Shown: positions 22,651-33,904 of the stretch, piece by piece
How positions within the stretch are numbered: position 1 is the first letter of the stretch
How the letters are laid out: each line of letters begins with the position of its first letter
Origin: an uncultured Mycoplasmatota bacterium
Lineage (GTDB): Bacteria > Bacillota_I > Bacilli_A > RF39 > UBA660
Assembly: GCA_948466395.1 (NCBI GenBank)
Contig: CAOKAG010000008.1
Span: 1 to 40,629, forward strand
Reading direction: 5' to 3'
Length of the DNA stretch: 40,629 nucleotides
Made by a program: the position numbers and the translations under genes
The notes under the pieces: model-generated
Told to the model about the DNA's origin: nothing
Seen by the model: the letters and a program-made list of their open reading frames with translations, nothing else
The model's database searches: none

Positions 22651-22700
22651 AACTTTCTAAGTTATTGACATTTAATGTTTTTAGAAGGAAGGGTTTTAAT

Positions 22701-25427
22701 ATGGATAATAAAAATAAATTAACAACACAAGCAATACTTGGTGCTGCTGCCTTGACAACATTAGTAGGATGTTCTCCTAAGAATCCTGTTGTTGAAACTT
22801 CAAATGTTGAGACTAAAACAGAAACAACTTATGAAAAAACGAATAAGAATAATGTAAATAAAAATGATATTCAATTAGAGCATTATGATAAAAATAAATC
22901 GGATAAAACGAAAAAGTCAGATCCTAAAATAAATACGAAGAGCCTATTTAAAGCAGGAATGATTTCTTATTATACGGTTTCAAAAGATTGGAAGTTTGAT
23001 GAATCAGAAAAGAATTCAAATTCATATAGTGAAAGTCAACTTTATGATTTTAATTCGATTGATTTATCAGATTATAATGGGGTTTCAATTGATGAAGCAT
23101 TAGTAGCAAAAGGGATTCCATATAATGAGGTTAAAGCCTTTAGAATTGCTGCAGCGACTTATTATGGAATGGATGACTATTGTGTTGACGGTTCGATTAG
23201 TGCTGAAAAAAATATAGAATTGATGAGGATTTTTAAATTACCTGTTAATGAAAGACCTGGTAAACAACAACAAGTAGAAGTAAATTCAAATGAATTTGTA
23301 GTTGAAGAAGGCATGCGTGGTTATGAACGAGTAGAAGTTTGGTTTCCTCTTAATTCTAAGACTCATGTAAAAACTGTTAAATTGTGTAAAATTGGCACTT
23401 TTGAAGAAAAAATACTTTCTAGTGAATTAGAAAATTGTGAGTTTGAATATGTTTTTAATCCACTTATAAATGAAGTGCAACGAAAATGTAAGCATTGTCA
23501 ACAATTTGTTTATGGAACGAAACAAAATAATTCAAATTCTTCAGTGATTAACAATACTTCTCAACCAGATAATCATTCGGATCAAACTGATCAAAAGACT
23601 ACTTCTGAAAAAGTGAAATGCGATCATCATTTAATTCTAACTATTCGTTATAGACCAGGAATAGGTGGGCATTTTGTAGTTAAAACATTTGCATGTTCTA
23701 AGTGTAATTATATCCAAAAAAAATTGGATTATGTAGAATGTGTTGGTGAATGGAAGTACGATCCTTCATCTAATCAAGATTACTGTATTTGTGAGAAGTG
23801 TGGTAGTAAAAATAATAGACCACATGAACATAATGTTATTGATGCGCATGATGACTTTATTTGGACAGAAGGAACCGAAACACACTCTAAGGTTTCAGTA
23901 GGATCTTGTAGTATGTGTGGAAAAGAAGTGGTTCAAATTAAAAAGAAAAATATTCCTTGTTCTAAAAAACCTGAAACTATTGATGGTAATGTGGTTCAAG
24001 TTTGTACAGATTGTCATCATAGATACCCTGAATTAGTTGATAAGTGTGAGCACAATGTCCTAGAAAGTGTTCATGAAAAAGTTGAATGGAATAAAGGTAC
24101 AGATACTCATCAAATTACTGAAGAAGGAACTTGTAAAGAATGTAAAGAGACAGTAACAAAGATAAAAAAACCATCTGAAGCTTGTAAATTGACTTTTCAT
24201 TATAAAAATATAGGTGGTGCAAAAAAAGATGTACCAGTTTGTGACGATTGCAAACATGAATATTTAGATAAAGCAGAAGAACATACAAGACATAATTTAA
24301 TAGGTGAGCCTCATTTTACTTATGAACATGATGATGCAACCGATAAACATAGAATTACAAATGCAACTAAAATATGTGACTATTGTAAACAAGAAATTCC
24401 AGTAGAACTTACTGATGAACAAAAGGAATGGCATGCTTGTTCTTATGGAGAAGAATTAACAGATAGTGATGGAAATAAATATCAAGAATGTAGTGTCTGT
24501 GGTTATAAAAAAAATCTAGAAATTGAATGTAAACATGATGATTTAGAAAATGTTAGTGAAAGCATTGAATGGAATCAAGATACAGATACTCATAAAATTA
24601 TTGAAGAGGGAATTTGTACGGAATGTGGAGAGCCAGTAATAAAGATAAAAAAACCTTCTGAAGCTTGTGATAAAAAATGGAAATTTAAAGATGGTTATGA
24701 TATTTGTGAATGTTTAAGTTGTGGGCATGAGTATGAAAAAAATAAACATAGTCATGATGTAGATCCTGCAAGTATTAAAACTGATACTGATCCAAACAAT
24801 GATGAGTGGTGTGTTAAAACTACTGGAACATGTAAAACTTGTAGTGAGACGTATATTCTTCTTGATCAATCACAAGGTCATGATCCTAAATTTGATGGAT
24901 ACACTACAGTTTATAATCAAGAAACTGGCGAGTTTGAAACTAAAGAAAAGCATGTCTGTGGAAACTGTGGTAGAATTGAATATAAAAATGTAGAAAATAA
25001 AAAAGAATCAGAAGTACCTGAGGAAACTGAAACAGAAGAAATTTCTGAAAAAATAGAATCAGAAATACCTGAGGAAACTGAAACAGAAGCTGTTTCTGAA
25101 GAAAGAGAATCAGAAGTACCTGAGGAACCTGAAACAGAACCTGTTTCTGAAGAAAGAGAATCAGAAATACCTGAGGAAACTGAAACAGAAGCTGTTTCTG
25201 AAGAAATAGAATCAGAAGTACCTGAGAAAACTGAAACAGAAGCTGTTTCTGAAGAAATAGAATCAGAAGTACCTGAGAAAACTGAAACAGAAGCTGTTTC
25301 TGAAGAAAGAGAATCAGAAGTATCTGATAAGTTTGCAGTTAATAGAACGTATTATCAAAATTTATTGAATCAGTTGAGTGGTTTTAGATTTGAAGAAGGT
25401 CCATCTCGAAGAAAAACAATAATATAG
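22701..25427 (+). CDS. Surface lipoprotein with many CxxC knuckles and a repeat stalk
   Basis: The ATG at 22701 has GAAGGAAGGG about seven bases upstream; a frame-open TTG at 22665 lies before the site and is rejected. The 908-residue product starts with a lipoprotein signal ending in the lipobox LVGC (Cys20). After a Lys/Asn/Thr linker and a globular part (about 90-250), residues 260-765 hold about twelve CxxC pairs interleaved with H-x-H or C-x-H units: KCKHCQ, CSKC, CEKCG, CSMCG, CTDCHH, CKECK, CDDCKHEY, CDYCK, CSVCG, CTECG, CLSCGHEY, CKTCS, CGNCG. Two longer repeats begin C-E/K-H and include TDTH and IEEGTC-like segments. Residues about 769-876 are six 17-residue acidic repeats with ESEVPEETETE, and then a short basic end. 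Likely zinc-stabilised repeat domains on a flexible stalk at the cell surface; the ligand is unknown. Confidence 0.82.
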   Translation: MDNKNKLTTQAILGAAALTTLVGCSPKNPVVETSNVETKTETTYEKTNKNNVNKNDIQLEHYDKNKSDKTKKSDPKINTKSLFKAGMISYYTVSKDWKFDESEKNSNSYSESQLYDFNSIDLSDYNGVSIDEALVAKGIPYNEVKAFRIAAATYYGMDDYCVDGSISAEKNIELMRIFKLPVNERPGKQQQVEVNSNEFVVEEGMRGYERVEVWFPLNSKTHVKTVKLCKIGTFEEKILSSELENCEFEYVFNPLINEVQRKCKHCQQFVYGTKQNNSNSSVINNTSQPDNHSDQTDQKTTSEKVKCDHHLILTIRYRPGIGGHFVVKTFACSKCNYIQKKLDYVECVGEWKYDPSSNQDYCICEKCGSKNNRPHEHNVIDAHDDFIWTEGTETHSKVSVGSCSMCGKEVVQIKKKNIPCSKKPETIDGNVVQVCTDCHHRYPELVDKCEHNVLESVHEKVEWNKGTDTHQITEEGTCKECKETVTKIKKPSEACKLTFHYKNIGGAKKDVPVCDDCKHEYLDKAEEHTRHNLIGEPHFTYEHDDATDKHRITNATKICDYCKQEIPVELTDEQKEWHACSYGEELTDSDGNKYQECSVCGYKKNLEIECKHDDLENVSESIEWNQDTDTHKIIEEGICTECGEPVIKIKKPSEACDKKWKFKDGYDICECLSCGHEYEKNKHSHDVDPASIKTDTDPNNDEWCVKTTGTCKTCSETYILLDQSQGHDPKFDGYTTVYNQETGEFETKEKHVCGNCGRIEYKNVENKKESEVPEETETEEISEKIESEIPEETETEAVSEERESEVPEEPETEPVSEERESEIPEETETEAVSEEIESEVPEKTETEAVSEEIESEVPEKTETEAVSEERESEVSDKFAVNRTYYQNLLNQLSGFRFEEGPSRRKTII
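25005..25328 (+). repeat. 51-bp tandem repeat coding for an acidic stalk
   Basis: Six complete units of 51 bp (25005-25310) and a partial seventh each begin GAATCAGAA and encode 17 residues. Units 5 and 6 are almost identical, so copy number is probably variable between strains through slippage or recombination. Confidence 0.92.
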
Positions 25428-25440
25428 GGGGGTGTAAGTT

Positions 25441-26388
25441 ATGAAACATGAGAATAAAAAGAAATGGTATCAACAAGCTAGTAATTGGCTTATTATTGGG
25501 GCTTGTATTATTTTGATTCCAATTATTATCATGAATTTAAGTATTATGTTTCAAGCTAAAGCTAACACAAATAAAGTTCCAAGTGTGTTTGGTATTAAGC
25601 CCTTTATGGTATTATCTGGATCAATGGAAGCTGAAATAAAAAAAGGTGATTTAATTATCACCAAAGAAATTAATCCAGAAGAATTAGAAATAGGAAAAGT
25701 AATCGCTTTTAGAGATGCAGCTGGAACCGTTACCACTCATCGAATCATCGATATTGTTGAAAAAGATGGAGAGTCTTTCTTCATTACTAAGGGTGATAAT
25801 AACTCTACTCAAGATCGTAATTTGGTAAGTTTAAAAGATGTCGAAGGGATTTATTTGTTTAGAATTCCAGGCATTGGTTCTATGATGAAATCTTTATCTC
25901 AAACTACGACGATAATTATTTTGGTTTTAATTATTACGGTTATATTTATTATAGGTTTTATTCTTTCTAATAAAAAATATGTAGAAGAAGAACGAGCTGA
26001 ATTTTTAGAATATAAGCGTAGAAAAGAAATGGAAGCACGAAGACGTGAAAGTATGAGAAGAGCGAATCCAAATTATAATCAAAATCAAAGAGTGGTTCGT
26101 CCTTCTAATCGAAATCCAAATCAGAATCGTGATTTAAATCGACAAAAGTTGAATAATAGTCAAAGTCAATATAGAAATAGAAATGACGTTAGAAGTGATA
26201 GAGGTGTTCGAATGCGTGATGAACAAGTTCGAGTATCCAATAATAATAATAATAATAATAGTAATTACAGAACTTCTAGACCAAATTCATCAAATAATAT
26301 GAATCGAAATTATAGACAAAATAATAAAAATCATTATAATAATAGTTATAGTCCTAAAAATGACTCGGAAAATCGACGAAGCCGTTAA
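25441..26388 (+). CDS. SipW-type signal peptidase I with Asn/Arg-rich tail
   Basis: This is an ER/archaeal-type signal peptidase of the SipW class, which in Bacillus processes TasA-type secreted proteins. The first membrane helix is at about 15-36. The catalytic region has VLSGSMEAEIKKGD (Ser61), THRI (His100) and KGDNN (Asp119), the Ser-His-Asp arrangement of SipW rather than Ser-Lys. A second helix lies at about 155-178. The tail, about 130 residues, is unusual: positively charged and then very rich in Asn, Arg and Gln, with a poly-Asn run. GGGGGGTG is seven bases before the ATG, and the gap from the lipoprotein gene is 13 bases. Its substrate is most likely the TasA-like protein encoded next. 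Confidence 0.9.
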   Translation: MKHENKKKWYQQASNWLIIGACIILIPIIIMNLSIMFQAKANTNKVPSVFGIKPFMVLSGSMEAEIKKGDLIITKEINPEELEIGKVIAFRDAAGTVTTHRIIDIVEKDGESFFITKGDNNSTQDRNLVSLKDVEGIYLFRIPGIGSMMKSLSQTTTIIILVLIITVIFIIGFILSNKKYVEEERAEFLEYKRRKEMEARRRESMRRANPNYNQNQRVVRPSNRNPNQNRDLNRQKLNNSQSQYRNRNDVRSDRGVRMRDEQVRVSNNNNNNNSNYRTSRPNSSNNMNRNYRQNNKNHYNNSYSPKNDSENRRSR

Positions 26389-26491: not shown

Positions 26492-27634
26492 ATGAAAAAG
26501 AAAATGACAGTTTTAGGTGGATTATTACTTGCTGCTTTAGTATCAGCTTATTCAGTATGTGGAACTTATGCTAAATATATTTCAAGTATTGATTTTGCAG
26601 ATGAAGCTAGAGTTGCTAAATGGGAATTTAAAGTAAATGGAGAAGATCCAGCAGCTTTTAATAACTTTGATATTGATTTATTCAAAGATTCTTATGAAAT
26701 AGAGAATATTAATCACCAATTTGTTGTATCAAGTGAACCAGGCGTTAAAGTAGTTGCTCCAGGAACTGAAGGAGAATATGCATTAGCATTAACTGGTACA
26801 GCTGAAACAAACTATACTGTTTTGTTAGATAATGTTGAAGTTGCAAACACTATTAAAACAACAGATAAAGATGGTAAAGAATATAGTCCTATCAAATTTA
26901 GTTTAACTGTTGGAACTGATGAAGTTGTAAGTAATGTAAGTATCGACGATTTAAAAGTTGAATTAGAAAAACTATATAATGGTCAAGCTGTTTATCCTGC
27001 AAATCACACTTTAAATGAAGAATTAGTGATTTCTTGGAAATGGGATTTCGAACAACCTGTACCAGATACTATTACTGATGCTGATGCCATTGCTGCTTAT
27101 AAAGCTGAATATAATGCATTAGATACTTATCTTGCTCAAGAACAAGGAACGGTTAGTGTTAAGTTTGGTGTAACTATTACACAAACTCAAGATGAAGCTA
27201 CTGTTACATCTAATAATACAACTTTAGCTACAACTATTAACACTAAAATTGATTCTGCAGATTTAAAAACATTAAAATCTTGGGGTTATGATGCAGCATT
27301 ATCTAGAAATGTAAAATCTGAAGTTACTGGTAATACATTAGCGTTAACTGGTTCTATTAATTTTACATCTAAAGATGAAGGCTTCAGTAGTAATGTTGCT
27401 GATAGAACAGGATATTATTATCCAGTAACTATTAAAGCAACTCAAGATTCTACAATAACATATAGCCAAAATCCTACTAAAACAGAATCTATCAAAGCTG
27501 GAGAAAGTTTAACTATTCTTTATGCTTTAAATTCAGAATCTAATGCTAAACAATCTACAATTACTATTACAGATAATAATGGTAATACTAACACTTATAC
27601 AGTAGATTATACTGGATTAAATTTTGTAAAATAG
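26492..27634 (+). CDS. TasA/camelysin-like secreted fibre subunit
   Basis: The ATG at 26492 has GGGGGAGGTGA just upstream; the in-frame GTG at 26483 is part of that site. The 380-residue product starts MKKKMTVLGGLLLAALVSAY, followed by GTYAKYISS, the SipW-cognate signal-peptide pattern. After it comes AKWEFKVNGED, a beta-sandwich with VVAPGTEGEYALALTGTAE (compare LKPGDKLTKDF of TasA), and an ISWKWDFEQ block. TasA forms extracellular fibres in Bacillus biofilms by donor-strand exchange. Cys residues are absent from the mature part. Its place just after a SipW gene, the flanking hairpins and its strong ribosome binding site suggest it is the abundant subunit of the locus. Family assignment rests on pattern and context, as identity to TasA is low. 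Confidence 0.85.
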   Translation: MKKKMTVLGGLLLAALVSAYSVCGTYAKYISSIDFADEARVAKWEFKVNGEDPAAFNNFDIDLFKDSYEIENINHQFVVSSEPGVKVVAPGTEGEYALALTGTAETNYTVLLDNVEVANTIKTTDKDGKEYSPIKFSLTVGTDEVVSNVSIDDLKVELEKLYNGQAVYPANHTLNEELVISWKWDFEQPVPDTITDADAIAAYKAEYNALDTYLAQEQGTVSVKFGVTITQTQDEATVTSNNTTLATTINTKIDSADLKTLKSWGYDAALSRNVKSEVTGNTLALTGSINFTSKDEGFSSNVADRTGYYYPVTIKATQDSTITYSQNPTKTESIKAGESLTILYALNSESNAKQSTITITDNNGNTNTYTVDYTGLNFVK

Positions 27635-27705: not shown

Positions 27706-27732
27706 ATTAAATTTTGAAGGGGGATGATGATT

Positions 27733-30700
27733 ATGACCAGAGGTTTTGATTATGAAGAGTATCATAACAATGATGATAAAAATGAAAAAAAATTAAATAA
27801 GCGAAAAGTAATAACCATGATTATTATCATAATCATCATTATTTTATTACTTATAACAAGTTGTAGTTGTACTTCTGGCTTTTTTGGAAGAATTGGTAAT
27901 CCTTTCGGAAACGAAGGAGAACATACTGTTGAACCAGATACTAATGATAAGGAAGTTATTCGAAATAAATATTTAAAATTTGATTCAGATAATGTAGAGA
28001 TGTCTTTAAGTGATTTAAATTATAAACTTTCTTATTCCTATGAATATATTATACCCAAAAGTTTAACTTGTACTACAAGTGATGCAACCATTGCTACTTG
28101 TTATGTAGAAAATGGTTATGTGGTCATTAATCCTAAAAGTGAAGGAACTGTTACCGTTACTTTATCAGGAGAAGCTAATGATAAGAAATACGAAGCGACG
28201 GCTACTGTTACTATTACCAGTCCTAAACGTTATATTCAACTATCCGATGATAAGGGAACCATTGATTTAAGAAAAACTTCTATTAAAAGAATTACTTTTG
28301 ATTTAATTGGATTAGATGGTGAAGTGAAGGTTTCATCAAGTAATGAGAAAGTGGCTCGTGTTCATTTGAGTAAAGAAGGGGTTATTACCATTACTGGTAA
28401 AGCTGTAGGAACGTCTGATATCATTGTTACTTTGGAGTATAATGGCAAAGTGTATGAAGCGATCTATCGATTAACCGTCATAAATGGGTCACAAGGTCCA
28501 AGTGTAAAACCAGGAAATCCAAATCAACCTAATGAGCCAAATGGAGAGATTAAAAGTAGTGATAGTTCATTAAGAGTATTAAAACCGAATCATGGAAGCA
28601 TTGATTTTAATTCTACGACTTATAATTATACCATGGGCTTCTCATGGTGGAGATGGCATTTAGGTTTTACAGCGATACCAAATAGTGATAAGGCAACCGT
28701 TCAATATTTTTATAACGGAAATGTTGTAGAAGATTTAGATCGACTTAAATTAAACGTTGGGGAAAATATTGTACGAATTGTAGTGACCGCCGAAGATGGA
28801 AGTACCTCTATTTATGAGGTTGTCATTAATCGAGCTCAATCTAGTAATAATTATTTAAAGAAATTAGAAACCAGTGTAGGACAGTTAACACCAAGTTTTG
28901 ATAAACAAAAATTACATTATGAATTGTTGGTTGGAAACAGTGTAGAAAAATTAACGTTAAATGCTGTTCCTTATCGAAAAAAATCAACGGTTTATTATAC
29001 TTTTAACGGTCAGAGTGTAGGATCACTTAATGATTTAAAATTAAATGTAGGTGTGAATACAGTTACTATTACAGTGGTTGCTCCAGATGGTAAAAGTGTA
29101 CGAGTTTATGATGTAAAAATTATTCGAGAGAAAGCAAGCAGTGAATTAGATAGTGACAATACTTTAAAAACATTAAATGTTTCTAAAGGTGACCCTCTTC
29201 ATTTCGATCCAATGAATAATGGTCCTTATTATGTTAATGTTGGAGCTGGGGTTAGTGATGTTGCTGTTACAGCGATTCCCAATAGTGATAAAATAAAAGA
29301 TATTACTTATACTTTTAATGGTCAAAAAATTGATTCTTTGGATTCTTTGAATTTAAAGAATGGCGATAATAAGTTAGAAATTACTATTACTGCTGAAGAT
29401 GGAAGTCAAAGAACGTATGTGGTCATTATTAATAAAGCCGCAAAAGATAATTCAAATACTTTAATGATGATTACGACTAATAAGGGAACCCTTACTCCAG
29501 CGTTTGATTCAAATCATAGTCATTATAAAGTTTATGTTAAAGAAAGTGATCAATTTATTACTTTAACTGCTACAACAACTGATAAAAACGCAACTTTATC
29601 TTATATTTATAACAATAATAAGGTAAATAGTTTAACGGATTTAAAATTAGAAGAAGGAACCAATACCGTTCAGATTTTAGTAACAAGTGAATCGGGTGTG
29701 GCTAGAACATACATTGTTGATATTATTAAACCAGTTTCGCCAAAGAGTAATAATAATTATCTTGAAAAAATAGAAACCGAACCAAATTTAAATATTACTT
29801 TTGATAAAGAAACGAAAGATCCTATTCGAGTAAGTGTTAAAAGTGATGTTGATAAAATTAATTTAAAAGGTATTCCAGAGGACAAAGAACATGCTCAGGT
29901 TAAATACATTGTTGGAAATGAAGTTTTTGATGATTTAAATGATTTACCTCTTCATTTAGGAGACAATGAGATTATTATAAGAGTTACGGCTGAGGATGGA
30001 AGCACTCGAGATTATCAAGTCATTATTAATCGTTCTGATTTGTCTTTGGAAAGCTTAAAAGATAGTTATAAAAAGTTAGATGCTTTATTTAATAAAGATC
30101 AATTAACGTATCAAATTGAATTAGATTCTAGTAAAGATAAAATTAGTATTTATCCAGAATTTAAAAAAGATTTAAATGTGACTTTTAAAGTTTGTAAAGT
30201 TATAGATGGGGCAGAAAAGGATTGTCAATCTCGTACAGACTTAAATGATGTTCCACTTGATTATGGTACAAATCGTGTGTTTATCACTTTGGAAAAAGAT
30301 GGCGAATCTAAGAGTTATGTTGTTGCTGTTTATCGTACGCCATTGAGTACAGAAAATCGATTGGATTCGATTGAAGTAAAAGATGATTCATCCCTTACTT
30401 TAAAACCAGAGTTTCATCCTGATTTAAATGATTATACACTTAATGTTCCTTATGATAAAAAAGAGATTACTTTAGAGGTTACGAAAAAAGATCCAAATAG
30501 TAAAGTGACAGTTGAGTACGAATACAACGGTGTTAAATATGATCGTTTGGAAGATTTACCTCTTAAAGAAGGTAAAAATGATATAAAAATTATTGTAACA
30601 AGTGAATCTGGAGAAGAGAATGTTTATACTGTTCATGTTCATCGTCCAACACGAGTAATTGAATTTGAAAGAACGTCGTATGATTTACCTATTGGAAAAA

Positions 30701-32220
30701 ATCATACTCTTCCTTATAAAATATATGAAATTGACTCAGATGGTAATCGTGAAGATGTGACAGAAAAAGTAAGTTATAAAGAAGTAGAAGCTCTTTTTGA
30801 AGATTCGGTTTTAAGTGAAGTCGCTGTTATAGAAAATGGTTGGATTCAAATTAAACCAAATGCTCAAGATTTAAACAAAGAAACTTCTTTAAAGGTTTCT
30901 TATGATGGAAAAGAAGCAACGGTACAGATTCGATTTATTAAAGAAGACTATTATGTTTCTTCTCCAAGTTTAGATTATCAAATGAGTGTATCTAGCTCAG
31001 ATCTTGTTAATAATGTTAAAGAAATTACTCTTAATACAAATTTATTTAGTAAGTTAGTTACAAAAGAAATAAATGGTAATGCTTTAATTCTTAAATCAGA
31101 TCAAGATAAATATATTAAAATTGAAATCGTAAGCGGTTCAGAATTGGTTACTCTGGATTATAAAGAAACGAATGAAATGGGACCTAATTCTTTAGCTCTT
31201 CTAGTTACAGCTTTAAAAGAAGGAACCGTTAAATTTAAAGTGACGATGGGAGCTTATGGAAATGTTTTAACCGAACCTAATCAAAGTCTAGACATTACTT
31301 TAACGATTGTTAAGAAAAAAGTCTTAGTTCTAGATGGAAATGGTGGAATTTACAACTTGCTTACGAATCGATACACTTTCTTAATTGGTGAAAATGAAAG
31401 TGTGGATTTAAGTGAATATGTTGTTCCATATAAGGAAAGTGATGTACCTTGTCAAGTCTACAAGTTCTTGGGATACAGTCAAAATAAAGAAAGCAAGGTT
31501 GCTGATCAAGGGTTAGAAGTACAAGAAATTGACAATCAAAAAGTGGTTTCTTATCTTGTTAAGGATTTAGAAAAAGATTTAACTTTATATGCTATTTATA
31601 GTGAAGAATTAGAAGAGAAGGAACCAGAAAAGAAAGAGTTATGGTTAGTGGATATTCCATTGTTCCATAATGAAGAATATTTTAGTAAATATAATGAAGA
31701 TAAAGTGATTTATCCAGGTGCAAAAGGTTATTATACAGAAAAAATAAAAAATGAAACAGATAAAACTATAACGATTACCAATTTAATCTTAAAGGAAGAT
31801 ACTATTTGTATTCCAAATAAAGGATGTTTAAATATGGGATATGTTATCAGATTTTATCCAAAAGAAGATACAAGAGCGACTTATTTAATTGGAGGAGAAA
31901 ATAAATATGAAGTATTGAATAAGAAAGCTTTTAGTATAAATGATAGTGAAAATTATCGAAATATGAGTACAAATGATGTTTTAGGAACGAGAGGTGCCAG
32001 TCGATTAAATATCAGTAATCAATCTATTGTTTTGAAACCGAATGAAGAAATAGAGTTGTATATTGCATGGGAATGGACCTTTGATACAGGAGAGGTGTCT
32101 GATGATCTTTTAGATACACAGATTGGAGAGTATGCCAGTCGAATTGAAGATACTTTAAATGATCGTTATCGTTTCTATTTAGGTTTTCAGTTTGAAGTAG
32201 AAGACGTTTGTGCTCCATAA
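27733..32220 (+). CDS. Giant membrane-anchored stalk protein: cadherin-like repeats and TasA-like C-terminus
   Basis: ATG 27733 is preferred because GAAGGGGG ends nine bases before it; ATGs at 27724 and 27727 abut the site. Of 1495 residues, 1-28 are charged and cytoplasmic, and 29-43 are a helix (mostly Ile/Leu) ending TSCSC, possibly a lipobox. Two Big_2-like domains follow (about 78-162 and 166-253), then a Pro/Asn linker. Seven cadherin-like beta-sandwich repeats (PF12733-like, about 275-975) have a recurring YxFNGxxVxSLNDLKLNxGxN core and an ITVTAEDGSxRxYxVxINR end. An irregular Ig-like part follows, then a FLGYS...LTLYAIYSE module (about 1190-1295) of the InlB-repeat kind. A final domain (about 1303-1495) has PGAKGYY, TNLILKEDT, IAWEWTFDTGE and LGFQFEVED, which match the TasA-like subunit's ISWKWDFE pattern. 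I infer a tethered stalk presenting a fibre-compatible tip. Confidence 0.85.
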   Translation: MTRGFDYEEYHNNDDKNEKKLNKRKVITMIIIIIIIILLLITSCSCTSGFFGRIGNPFGNEGEHTVEPDTNDKEVIRNKYLKFDSDNVEMSLSDLNYKLSYSYEYIIPKSLTCTTSDATIATCYVENGYVVINPKSEGTVTVTLSGEANDKKYEATATVTITSPKRYIQLSDDKGTIDLRKTSIKRITFDLIGLDGEVKVSSSNEKVARVHLSKEGVITITGKAVGTSDIIVTLEYNGKVYEAIYRLTVINGSQGPSVKPGNPNQPNEPNGEIKSSDSSLRVLKPNHGSIDFNSTTYNYTMGFSWWRWHLGFTAIPNSDKATVQYFYNGNVVEDLDRLKLNVGENIVRIVVTAEDGSTSIYEVVINRAQSSNNYLKKLETSVGQLTPSFDKQKLHYELLVGNSVEKLTLNAVPYRKKSTVYYTFNGQSVGSLNDLKLNVGVNTVTITVVAPDGKSVRVYDVKIIREKASSELDSDNTLKTLNVSKGDPLHFDPMNNGPYYVNVGAGVSDVAVTAIPNSDKIKDITYTFNGQKIDSLDSLNLKNGDNKLEITITAEDGSQRTYVVIINKAAKDNSNTLMMITTNKGTLTPAFDSNHSHYKVYVKESDQFITLTATTTDKNATLSYIYNNNKVNSLTDLKLEEGTNTVQILVTSESGVARTYIVDIIKPVSPKSNNNYLEKIETEPNLNITFDKETKDPIRVSVKSDVDKINLKGIPEDKEHAQVKYIVGNEVFDDLNDLPLHLGDNEIIIRVTAEDGSTRDYQVIINRSDLSLESLKDSYKKLDALFNKDQLTYQIELDSSKDKISIYPEFKKDLNVTFKVCKVIDGAEKDCQSRTDLNDVPLDYGTNRVFITLEKDGESKSYVVAVYRTPLSTENRLDSIEVKDDSSLTLKPEFHPDLNDYTLNVPYDKKEITLEVTKKDPNSKVTVEYEYNGVKYDRLEDLPLKEGKNDIKIIVTSESGEENVYTVHVHRPTRVIEFERTSYDLPIGKNHTLPYKIYEIDSDGNREDVTEKVSYKEVEALFEDSVLSEVAVIENGWIQIKPNAQDLNKETSLKVSYDGKEATVQIRFIKEDYYVSSPSLDYQMSVSSSDLVNNVKEITLNTNLFSKLVTKEINGNALILKSDQDKYIKIEIVSGSELVTLDYKETNEMGPNSLALLVTALKEGTVKFKVTMGAYGNVLTEPNQSLDITLTIVKKKVLVLDGNGGIYNLLTNRYTFLIGENESVDLSEYVVPYKESDVPCQVYKFLGYSQNKESKVADQGLEVQEIDNQKVVSYLVKDLEKDLTLYAIYSEELEEKEPEKKELWLVDIPLFHNEEYFSKYNEDKVIYPGAKGYYTEKIKNETDKTITITNLILKEDTICIPNKGCLNMGYVIRFYPKEDTRATYLIGGENKYEVLNKKAFSINDSENYRNMSTNDVLGTRGASRLNISNQSIVLKPNEEIELYIAWEWTFDTGEVSDDLLDTQIGEYASRIEDTLNDRYRFYLGFQFEVEDVCAP

Positions 32221-32238: not shown

Positions 32239-33261
32239 ATGAAAGTAGTAAAAAGGGTTTTAGTAACCTTTATAACCACTTTATTGGTTGTATTGTTAGT
32301 CATTAATGTTTATAGTTTCATTTCTATAAAATTAATGAAAAAAGATTTGGCTACTGTTTTTGGTTATTCCACTTTGGAAGTCGTTAGTGGATCAATGGAA
32401 CCAACGATTCATATTGGAGATTTGATTTTTATTGATACTAAGTCAAAGGATTTTAATGTCAATGATATTGTGACCTTTTATGATCAACAAGGAAATTTTG
32501 TGACTCATCGAATTGTTTCTATTAATAATGGTAGAGTTGTAACAAAAGGAGATAACAATAATTCTATTGATGAGAGTTTTTCAGTAGATAAAATTGTGGG
32601 GAAATGTATTTTTGTTGTTAATAATGGTGGCAAGATTATAAGTGCATTTAGAAGTCCTTTAGCCATTGGCATGATTTTTGTGACAGGAGTACTAGCTTGT
32701 ATTTATTTAAGCTTAGATAAGAATGGTAAGCCAATACTTACTAAGGAAGAGAGGGAATTGGAAATGTTTAAGAAAAACAAAAAATTTGTTGGTTTTGAAG
32801 AAAACGATGCGTATAATGAATTTGATGAAGAACTTGATTTACAACTTGATGAAGATTATGATGAATTGAATGGTACTGAGGAAGATTCATTTGATTATTA
32901 CAATGAACAGGGTATGGATGAGTGTTATTACGAAGAAGAGGAAGAATTACAATTAGAAGAAGTGGTTAAGGAAATTGAAGATAATAAGGAGAGCAATAGT
33001 ATGAGTAATATTACTACTTTAGAAGAATTCAGAAAATACAAAGAAGAAAAGGAACTTGAAGAATTTAGAAAATACAAAGAAGAAAAAGAACTTGAAGAAT
33101 TTAGAAAATATAAAGAAGAAAAAGAACTTCAAGAATTTAAACAATATGAAGCTTCTATGAAAAAGAATAATTATCGTCCATCAGAAAACAGAAAAAACAA
33201 TTATCATAAAAACTCTAATGGATATAAAAAATATCATAATGATTATAAAAAGAAAAATTAG
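32239..33261 (+). CDS. Second SipW-type signal peptidase I, acidic repeat tail
   Basis: A 340-residue ER-type signal peptidase distinct from the one at 25441. Helix 1 is at about 7-30, and the catalytic sequence is VVSGSMEPTIHIGD (Ser52), THRI (His90) and KGDNNNS (Asp105). Helix 2 lies at about 138-158. The tail (about 175-340) is acidic up to about 255 (DEELDLQLDEDYDELNGTEE), followed by EEFRKYKEEKEL repeated three times and a Lys/Asn/Tyr-rich end. GGGGGGAAAA stands just before the ATG, 18 bases after the giant gene. Opposite tail charge from the first peptidase (acidic versus basic) could let the two enzymes interact or select different substrates. The genes after it encode its probable substrates. 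Confidence 0.9.
   Translation: MKVVKRVLVTFITTLLVVLLVINVYSFISIKLMKKDLATVFGYSTLEVVSGSMEPTIHIGDLIFIDTKSKDFNVNDIVTFYDQQGNFVTHRIVSINNGRVVTKGDNNNSIDESFSVDKIVGKCIFVVNNGGKIISAFRSPLAIGMIFVTGVLACIYLSLDKNGKPILTKEERELEMFKKNKKFVGFEENDAYNEFDEELDLQLDEDYDELNGTEEDSFDYYNEQGMDECYYEEEEELQLEEVVKEIEDNKESNSMSNITTLEEFRKYKEEKELEEFRKYKEEKELEEFRKYKEEKELQEFKQYEASMKKNNYRPSENRKNNYHKNSNGYKKYHNDYKKKN
33022..33147 (+). repeat. 36-bp tandem repeat in the tail of the second SipW
   Basis: Three full units (33022-33057, 33058-33093, 33094-33129) of GAAGAATTYAGAAAATA-type sequence are followed by a degenerate fourth (33130-33147). Each unit encodes EEFRKYKEEKEL. Confidence 0.9.
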
Positions 33262-33271
33262 GTGAAGAAAA

Positions 33272-33904
33272 ATGAAAGGGTTACTACATAGTAAAAGATT
33301 TAAAAGTAATTTAGGAAAATGGTTATGTATGTATGTTGGAGTATTACTTCTTCTTACAACTGTAGTAACCTATTCTAAATTTATAACAGACATGCAAGGG
33401 GATGATGAGGAAAGTAAACCAGCTAAGTTTAATGTAGATGTTATTGGCTATGGCACAAAGTTAGAAGAAACACCTGAAGGAACAACTATTTATGATGCTG
33501 GATTACAAAGACCCAATGCTCCGTTGACCTATTATTTAAAAATTAATACAGAATTTGAAGTTGCCACTATTTTAACACTTAATGCAACCATTCAGTCTGA
33601 ATTTAATTTAATCAGTGTTACTGAACTAAAAAATGATAAAGAACGATTGTTATGTGATAGTAGTGATAAAGATGATACAAATGATTGTGATGTTATTATT
33701 ACAGAAGATAATAATAAATATTATGTTTTAAATCAATCTAAGATTTATCCTCAAAAAGATCGTCCTTTGAAATCTGAAATCATTTATAAAATTGTGGTTA
33801 AATATGATAATAAAGATGATAAGGATTATAAAAAATTTGAAGCTTATGAACAAAGTAAAAGTATTATCGATATTAATTATCGCGCAGAACAAATTATTAA
33901 ATAG
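33272..33904 (+). CDS. SipW-dependent TasA-like minor subunit
   Basis: AGGTGAAGAAA precedes the ATG, 10 bases after the second SipW gene. The 210-residue product has a long basic N-region (MKGLLHSKRFKSNLGK), a hydrophobic core LCMYVGVLLLLTTVV, then TYSKFITD, a SipW-cognate signal pattern. The mature part starts PAKFNVDVIGYG, a beta-rich domain of TasA/camelysin type (LTYYLKINTEFEVATILTLN), and ends with DINYRAEQIIK. A Cys pair (LLCDSSDKDDTNDCDV) frames an acidic loop, possibly a disulfide. It is probably a minor or accessory fibre subunit processed by the peptidase encoded upstream. Confidence 0.75.
   Translation: MKGLLHSKRFKSNLGKWLCMYVGVLLLLTTVVTYSKFITDMQGDDEESKPAKFNVDVIGYGTKLEETPEGTTIYDAGLQRPNAPLTYYLKINTEFEVATILTLNATIQSEFNLISVTELKNDKERLLCDSSDKDDTNDCDVIITEDNNKYYVLNQSKIYPQKDRPLKSEIIYKIVVKYDNKDDKDYKKFEAYEQSKSIIDINYRAEQIIK

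Follow-up and report, generated by a model that had tools for sequence, protein, structure and literature searches.

How TasA-type fibres are attached to the cell is unsettled, and the locus described here, from an uncultured Mycoplasmatota bacterium, points to a direct answer, namely a membrane stalk that carries a domain of the fibre-subunit kind. The window analysed, one contig of 40,629 nucleotides from a genome of 1.36 Mb, encodes a putative TasA-like fibre subunit and, downstream of it, a protein of 1498 residues (referred to below as the giant), the end of which an initial annotation had likened to that subunit. Whether this likeness is real, and what such a domain may do at the end of an anchored protein, are the questions raised by the locus. 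The last ~196 residues of the giant were found to be a divergent TasA-type domain. The reading favoured here, with moderate confidence, is that the giant forms a stalk fixed in the membrane and that its distal domain would act as the terminal acceptor of a TasA-type donor-strand fibre, tying the fibre to the cell.

Gene cluster and relatives

The features of the cluster are collected in Table 1. Of 193 genomes sampled within the family, 14 had genuine relatives, and the species-level genome set contributed 24 loci. The weak matches found in G105 and G138 were dropped as probably spurious, that in G138 sitting in a 279-aa ORF which resembles a nucleoside hydrolase. Three alignments were used, namely the last two domains of the giant (A3, 24 sequences), the TasA-like subunits (A4, 23 sequences) and the small subunits (A5, 24 sequences).

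Table 1. Features of the fibre gene cluster on the window, with the residues compared with TasA.
Feature	Coordinates	Strand	Basis or remark
Putative lipoprotein, 920 aa, heads the cluster	22665..25427	+	LVGC lipobox, Cys/His-rich repeats, acidic repeat tail
SipW-type signal peptidase I (SipW-A)	25441..26388	+	TIGR02228 6.7e-29; NF046067 1.8e-28 (under that model's own cut-off)
TasA-like fibre subunit, 383 aa	26483..27634	+	SipW-type signal GTYA↓KY; predicted, from sequence and model
Subunit, predicted donor strand KYISSIDFADEARVA	26573..26617	+	Y opposite TasA F29, 23/23; mostly pLDDT < 50
Subunit, P opposite TasA P62	26759..26761	+	Invariant 23/23
Subunit, W opposite TasA F200	27041-27043	+	Invariant 23/23
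Subunit, Q opposite TasA Q232	27182-27184	+	Invariant 23/23
Giant protein, 1498 aa	27724..32220	+	ORF and domain matches
Giant, N-terminal Ile-rich hydrophobic segment	27808..27864	+	Ends in lipobox-like ITSC
Giant, stalk of seven PF12733 cadherin-like repeats	28552..30648 (outer limits approximate)	+	
Giant, penultimate domain, Listeria-Bacteroides repeat (Flg_new)-like	31312..31599	+	Profile/domain match
Giant, 11-residue linker, site where a donor strand is expected	31600..31632	+	Variable, polar in 24 relatives
Giant, C-terminal TasA-type domain	31630..32217	+	Profile homology, model
Giant, Pro of IYPG opposite TasA P62	31714..31716	+	Invariant 24/24
Giant, Trp opposite TasA F200	32074-32076	+	Invariant 24/24
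Giant, Val opposite TasA Q232	32197..32199	+	V/T/K/S/E/N in relatives; Q 0/24
Second SipW-type signal peptidase (SipW-B)	32239..33261	+	Adjoins the giant directly 3'
Small SipW-dependent protein, 210 aa	33272..33904	+	Related to the TasA-like subunit
Protein of 655 aa	33905..35872	+	SipW-like signal region

The genes for the TasA-like subunit, the giant, both SipW peptidases and the small subunit with its donor motif form a conserved operon. In all 21 loci that have sequence ahead of the giant, the subunit gene is found there at a distance of 57-138 bases, a count from which L081, whose split giant runs to the contig start, was set aside. Near-identical tandem copies of the subunit gene were noted in two loci (L071:1096-2592 and L074:1578-3117), and a second TasA-like gene of one genome (L066:708-1352, G000:C16) adjoins a signal-peptidase-like gene without a giant. 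The 920-aa Cys/His-rich protein at the head of the cluster is variable in relatives and no family was found for it. The 655-aa protein keeps its position without any recognisable domain; a third TasA-type domain was considered there and rejected, none being detectable, and the protein is possibly a further fibre component.

Homology of the terminal domain

The pairwise BLASTP comparison of the two window proteins was marginal, with a best match of 11 residues at E 0.025, so that likeness seen by eye proves nothing. Comparison of profiles gave two separate matching segments, WxW...DTxIG (P 1.1e-8) and DLF...YPGxxGxY (P 1.3e-8). When the trimmed domains were compared by hhalign (24 against 23 sequences), the probability was 96.9 in local mode (P 1.7e-10) and 97.3 in global mode (P 5.2e-11), the latter over 160 columns from end to end, whereas the best of 200 column-shuffled profiles reached 2.4% and a reversed profile 0.3%. 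The penultimate domain of the giant likewise gave 0.3% with the subunit profile, that is, no match. The claim that the giant ends in a subunit-like domain is thus upheld on these figures. The giant's last domain and the subunits share the motif order (D)LF, PGxxGxY, WxW, D-T-x-(I/L)-G and a last strand. All four motifs quoted in the initial annotation occur in ORF 27724-32220, and in the full alignment PGAKGYY, IAWEWTFD and the last strand face the partners named for them, the second pair (TNLILKED) matching only roughly. The domain is C-terminal as had been proposed, with a start somewhat earlier (about 31630) than the 31639 given for a domain of 190 residues.

The family databases were silent on both proteins: PHROGs, Pfam and NCBIfam hold no family for the giant's last domain or for the subunit, and the Pfam/NCBIfam TasA/camelysin models matched none of the 23 subunit members, although these models may not reach so far. 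Neither the giant-domain profile nor the subunit profile found a relative among PDB sequences, and direct comparison of profile with the single TasA sequence gave no match. TasA (a sequence identical to 8aur_A) was therefore added to the alignments with MAFFT, where its placement was stable on the subunit alignment in three modes and unstable on the giant alignment. TasA itself was not found in 395 genomes of the class by a search run without a positive control.

Structure models

AlphaFold modelled the C-terminal region of the giant with a pLDDT of 76.7 and a pTM of 0.63, and the subunit with 73.3 and 0.55, respectively. Nearly all of residues 1-39 in the subunit model fall below a pLDDT of 50, as is expected for a signal followed by a free donor strand. 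From the PG motif onwards both models have six strands, the sixth being WxW, then a helix at DTxIG and a further strand. Residues 106-299 of the modelled giant region aligned to residues 47-235 of TasA (5of2) with Z 5.9 over 140 residues (rmsd 4.8), a match found among VIA-align results in which unrelated jelly-roll proteins reach Z 7.5; subunit residues 48-232 aligned to 43-234 of the same structure with Z 5.4, a value below 8, over 129 residues (rmsd 3.6). In Foldseek the TasA fibre 8aur was the most probable of the matches listed for the subunit (probability 0.99), and for the giant TasA lay outside the best 50 matches, which have very high rmsd. Both regions show the same order of strands and helix and both align to TasA, at a modest Z of 5.4-5.9; lying within the jelly-roll background, these values support the profile result without proving a TasA fold. 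The predicted TasA-type fold takes up the N-terminal ~235 aa of the subunit and is followed by an additional C-terminal Ig-like domain. This extra domain (27205-27631) was seen in this genome, in L054 and in L061 and is absent in most relatives.

Residues of the proline box

TasA fibres are built by placing the N-terminal strand of one subunit (n) in a groove of the next (n+1) (PMC9674648). The most conserved contact is the proline box, made up of F29 (n), Q232 (n+1) and F200 with P62 (n+2) (PMC10151520). The subunits surveyed here retain all four positions, each of Y, P, W and Q being present in 23 of 23 sequences in three MAFFT modes, with Y replacing F29 and W replacing F200. A SipW-dependent signal, (G/N)TYA↓(K/R)Y, is also found in all 23, alongside the two SipW-type peptidases of the operon.

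The giant, judged from its aligned residues, appears to retain only the receiving half of the box, namely P and W, without donor strand or Q. Its position opposite Q232 (V296 of the region) was placed by two indirect alignments, one from hhalign and the other from where the structural alignment begins and stops. No conserved donor strand or F29 equivalent was found ahead of the last domain in the 24 relatives. Because the donor strand and the Q232 equivalent are both missing, the domain is plausibly an acceptor only. Retention of P and W with loss of Q and donor is the signature to be expected of a terminal acceptor, an expectation of this study rather than a published rule, and it makes docking more likely than nucleation of the donating kind. 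The earlier proposal that the giant nucleates or docks the fibre by donor-strand exchange accordingly fares unevenly: for a domain with neither donor strand nor Q, docking, or terminating, is a better fit than nucleation by donation.

Anchor and stalk

A membrane anchor at the other end of the giant had also been proposed, and the relatives bear this out. All complete N-termini run from a charged, cytoplasmic-type start through an Ile-rich hydrophobic segment to one or two cysteines at the segment end, and the lipobox pattern is present in 21 of 22 (23 N-termini were listed, the split gene L081 being left out of the count). The giant may thus carry a lipid anchor or simply span the membrane; signal peptidase II is encoded in the genome, and the SipW-type motif is absent from the segment 27808..27864. 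Anchoring by LPXTG and sortase was rejected, since the C-terminus lacks LPXTG with a hydrophobic stretch and charged tail, the protein ending instead in the TasA-type domain with the residues ...VEDVCAP; four sortase-family matches occur in the genome nonetheless. Five transpeptidase-domain matches indicate a peptidoglycan wall, in agreement with the wall predicted for most RF39 (PMC10868615).

The giant carries, in order after the membrane anchor, Ig-like domains, seven cadherin-like repeats, further Ig-like domains, the Listeria-Bacteroides repeat-like domain and the TasA-type domain. The initial annotation had placed the fibre 7-10 domains from the membrane, which does not hold as a general feature: the giant of this genome has about 12 domains, seven of them cadherin-like, and relatives have no cadherin-like repeat (L071, L074, L076), one (L069), three, five or seven. 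In some relatives Big_2 domains replace these repeats, and the complete genes encode proteins of 629 to 1619 aa. The two ends of the giant are therefore conserved and the spacing between them is variable.

Occurrence outside the family

The last domain of the giant was found in 29 of the 288 genomes of the order, all of one family (one of them, G184, counted by a weak partial match only), and in a single genome in the wider class sample outside that family. The outside match is a protein of 282 aa with one membrane segment and a TasA-type domain close behind it, encoded beside a TasA-like subunit gene, and a second genome has an equivalent short anchored protein. These short proteins look like a stalk-less version of the giant. 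The C-terminus of both reads YQ(T/A)K, which suggests that they may retain a Q and that its loss may not be general. The two genes (L117:6389-7237 and L118:8130-8963, in a second family of the class) encode no stalk and lie directly upstream of the subunit gene. Next in these loci come genes for another membrane protein and for proteins of the SipW type.

Proposed docking and its alternatives

From the homology, the anchor, the gene linkage and the partial interface, an arrangement of fibre, inserted strand and bound end may be inferred as follows. The subunits would polymerise in the manner of TasA, with the N-terminal strand KYxSxxxxxDxARVAKW of each inserted into the next. The free donor strand at one end of the fibre, belonging to either the major or the small subunit, would slot into the last domain of the giant, filling its groove, and growth of the chain would stop there because this domain cannot donate. 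The stalk would take the fibre through or past the cell wall. Before a donor arrives, the segment ahead of the YPG motif, LWLVDIPLFHNEEYF..., may occupy the groove, a place taken in monomeric TasA by residues 48-61.

It is also conceivable that the small subunit (33272-33904) donates to the giant's acceptor domain, as an adaptor or TapA-like starter, and that the major subunit never contacts the giant. Small subunits conserve the TYSKY donor motif; of the 24 sequences, 21 have P, 23 an aromatic residue and all 24 Q at the matching positions. In every one of 23 loci their gene is the second one 3' of the giant. When distance matrices from 16 loci were compared, taking the two SipW proteins as background, distances of the giant's last domain followed those of the small subunit (partial r 0.39, p 0.003) more closely than those of the major subunit (partial r 0.23, p 0.03, weak). 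The higher value makes the small subunit a serious candidate for direct partner of the domain, although operon-linked genes correlate in any case, the number of loci is small, and the small-subunit profile shows no direct likeness to the giant's last domain. An adaptor that wholly replaces the major subunit at the giant is considered rather unlikely, without being far-fetched.

A role for the giant as nucleator, its domain templating or donating to the first subunit, could draw on the accessory protein TapA, which starts fibres in B. subtilis, and on F-Anchor, which has been proposed as the starting point of F-ENA fibres (PMC11952670). TapA, however, starts fibres with a donor strand, and in the giant no such strand precedes the domain, the linker there being variable and polar; as an acceptor, the domain would face the donor end. 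Nucleation by the giant is therefore held to be improbable. A place at the opposite end of the fibre is no more probable. Here the TasA-type domain would cap the distal end, with the repeats acting as an adhesin on a protein released from the membrane. Cadherin-like and Ig-like repeats are common in adhesins, and in FimH the subunit domain is likewise fused behind another domain and acts as acceptor only. The conserved N-terminus of the giant is nevertheless a membrane segment with a lipobox and not a head domain, and the anchored protein of the other family has no repeats at all. Jelly-roll domains being widespread, as the background of the structure search illustrates, the TasA-type fold may have been reused as an ordinary surface domain that makes no contact with the fibre, a reading made the least probable of all by the invariant P and W of the interface, the strict linkage to the subunit gene and the same pairing in a second lineage.

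Known systems

From the alignments and models, the giant's last domain has its elements in the same order as TasA of Bacillus subtilis (5of2, 8aur) and the camelysins, has equivalents of P62 and F200 and probably has their fold. The neighbouring subunit resembles them further in its donor residue, in keeping Q232 and in its SipW-dependent signal. The giant's domain differs from TasA in ending a membrane-anchored protein of 1498 residues, in lacking donor strand and Q232, in having three invariant cysteines and in a sequence beyond the reach of the Pfam and NCBIfam models.

Accessory proteins of the tasA operon, TapA in B. subtilis and CapP in B. cereus, have likewise been assigned a role in joining the fibre to the cell or starting it there. 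TapA has been reported as fibre starter and perhaps anchor and is not conserved even within Bacillus (PMC10151520). The strand that begins the chain is donated by TapA, the Ig fold of which is itself closed, whereas the giant has no TapA-like N-terminus copying the TasA donor strand, its N-terminus being the membrane segment. CapP differs in being self-assembling and chaperone-like (PMC13082335). A membrane stalk bearing a TasA acceptor domain has been reported for neither, and no anchored TasA-domain protein was found in the open-licence papers searched.

The plan of anchor, variable stalk and subunit-like domain is already known, with another fold, from F-Anchor of the F-ENA spore fibres of Bacillus thuringiensis, which has an anchoring N-terminus, a variable stalk and a subunit-like C-terminal domain into which the N-terminal hook of the subunit is predicted to dock, and whose gene adjoins the subunit gene (PMC11952670). 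The giant shares the anchoring N-terminus, the variable stalk, the subunit-like C-terminal domain and the adjoining gene. F-Anchor differs in its DUF4183 trimer fold, its collagen or DUF11 stalk and its anchoring to the exosporium rather than the membrane; neither DUF4183 nor an exosporium leader was found in the giant, whose recognised domains are cadherin-like, Ig-like and List_Bact_rpt-like. The parallel would make a stalk-borne, subunit-like acceptor a recurring solution to fibre attachment. FimH and the other terminal pilins of chaperone-usher pili also carry a subunit domain behind another domain and hence serve only as acceptors. They differ from the giant in being unrelated proteins at the distal end of the pilus, assembled with an usher and a periplasmic chaperone.

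A wider model may be offered tentatively, as a possibility rather than an expectation: a donor-strand fibre of Gram-positive-type bacteria in which each end has its own protein, at one a small starter that bears the donor and at the other an anchored, acceptor-only terminator on a stalk of variable length. Such a terminator would perhaps be locked by the invariant cysteine near the C-terminus of the giant. Under this model no anchored terminator would have been described before for TasA-type fibres, and a second lineage would have one too, though stalk-less.

Four cysteines are invariant in the 24 giants, one in the penultimate domain (31450-31452) and three in the last (31807-31809, 31825-31827 and 32209-32211), the final one standing 1-9 residues from the C-terminus across all 24. 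Through them the domain could be locked or joined to a partner. The giant of L081 (227-4678) is split into two ORFs of 788 and 689 aa, either because its reading frame is broken or because the assembly is wrong at that point.
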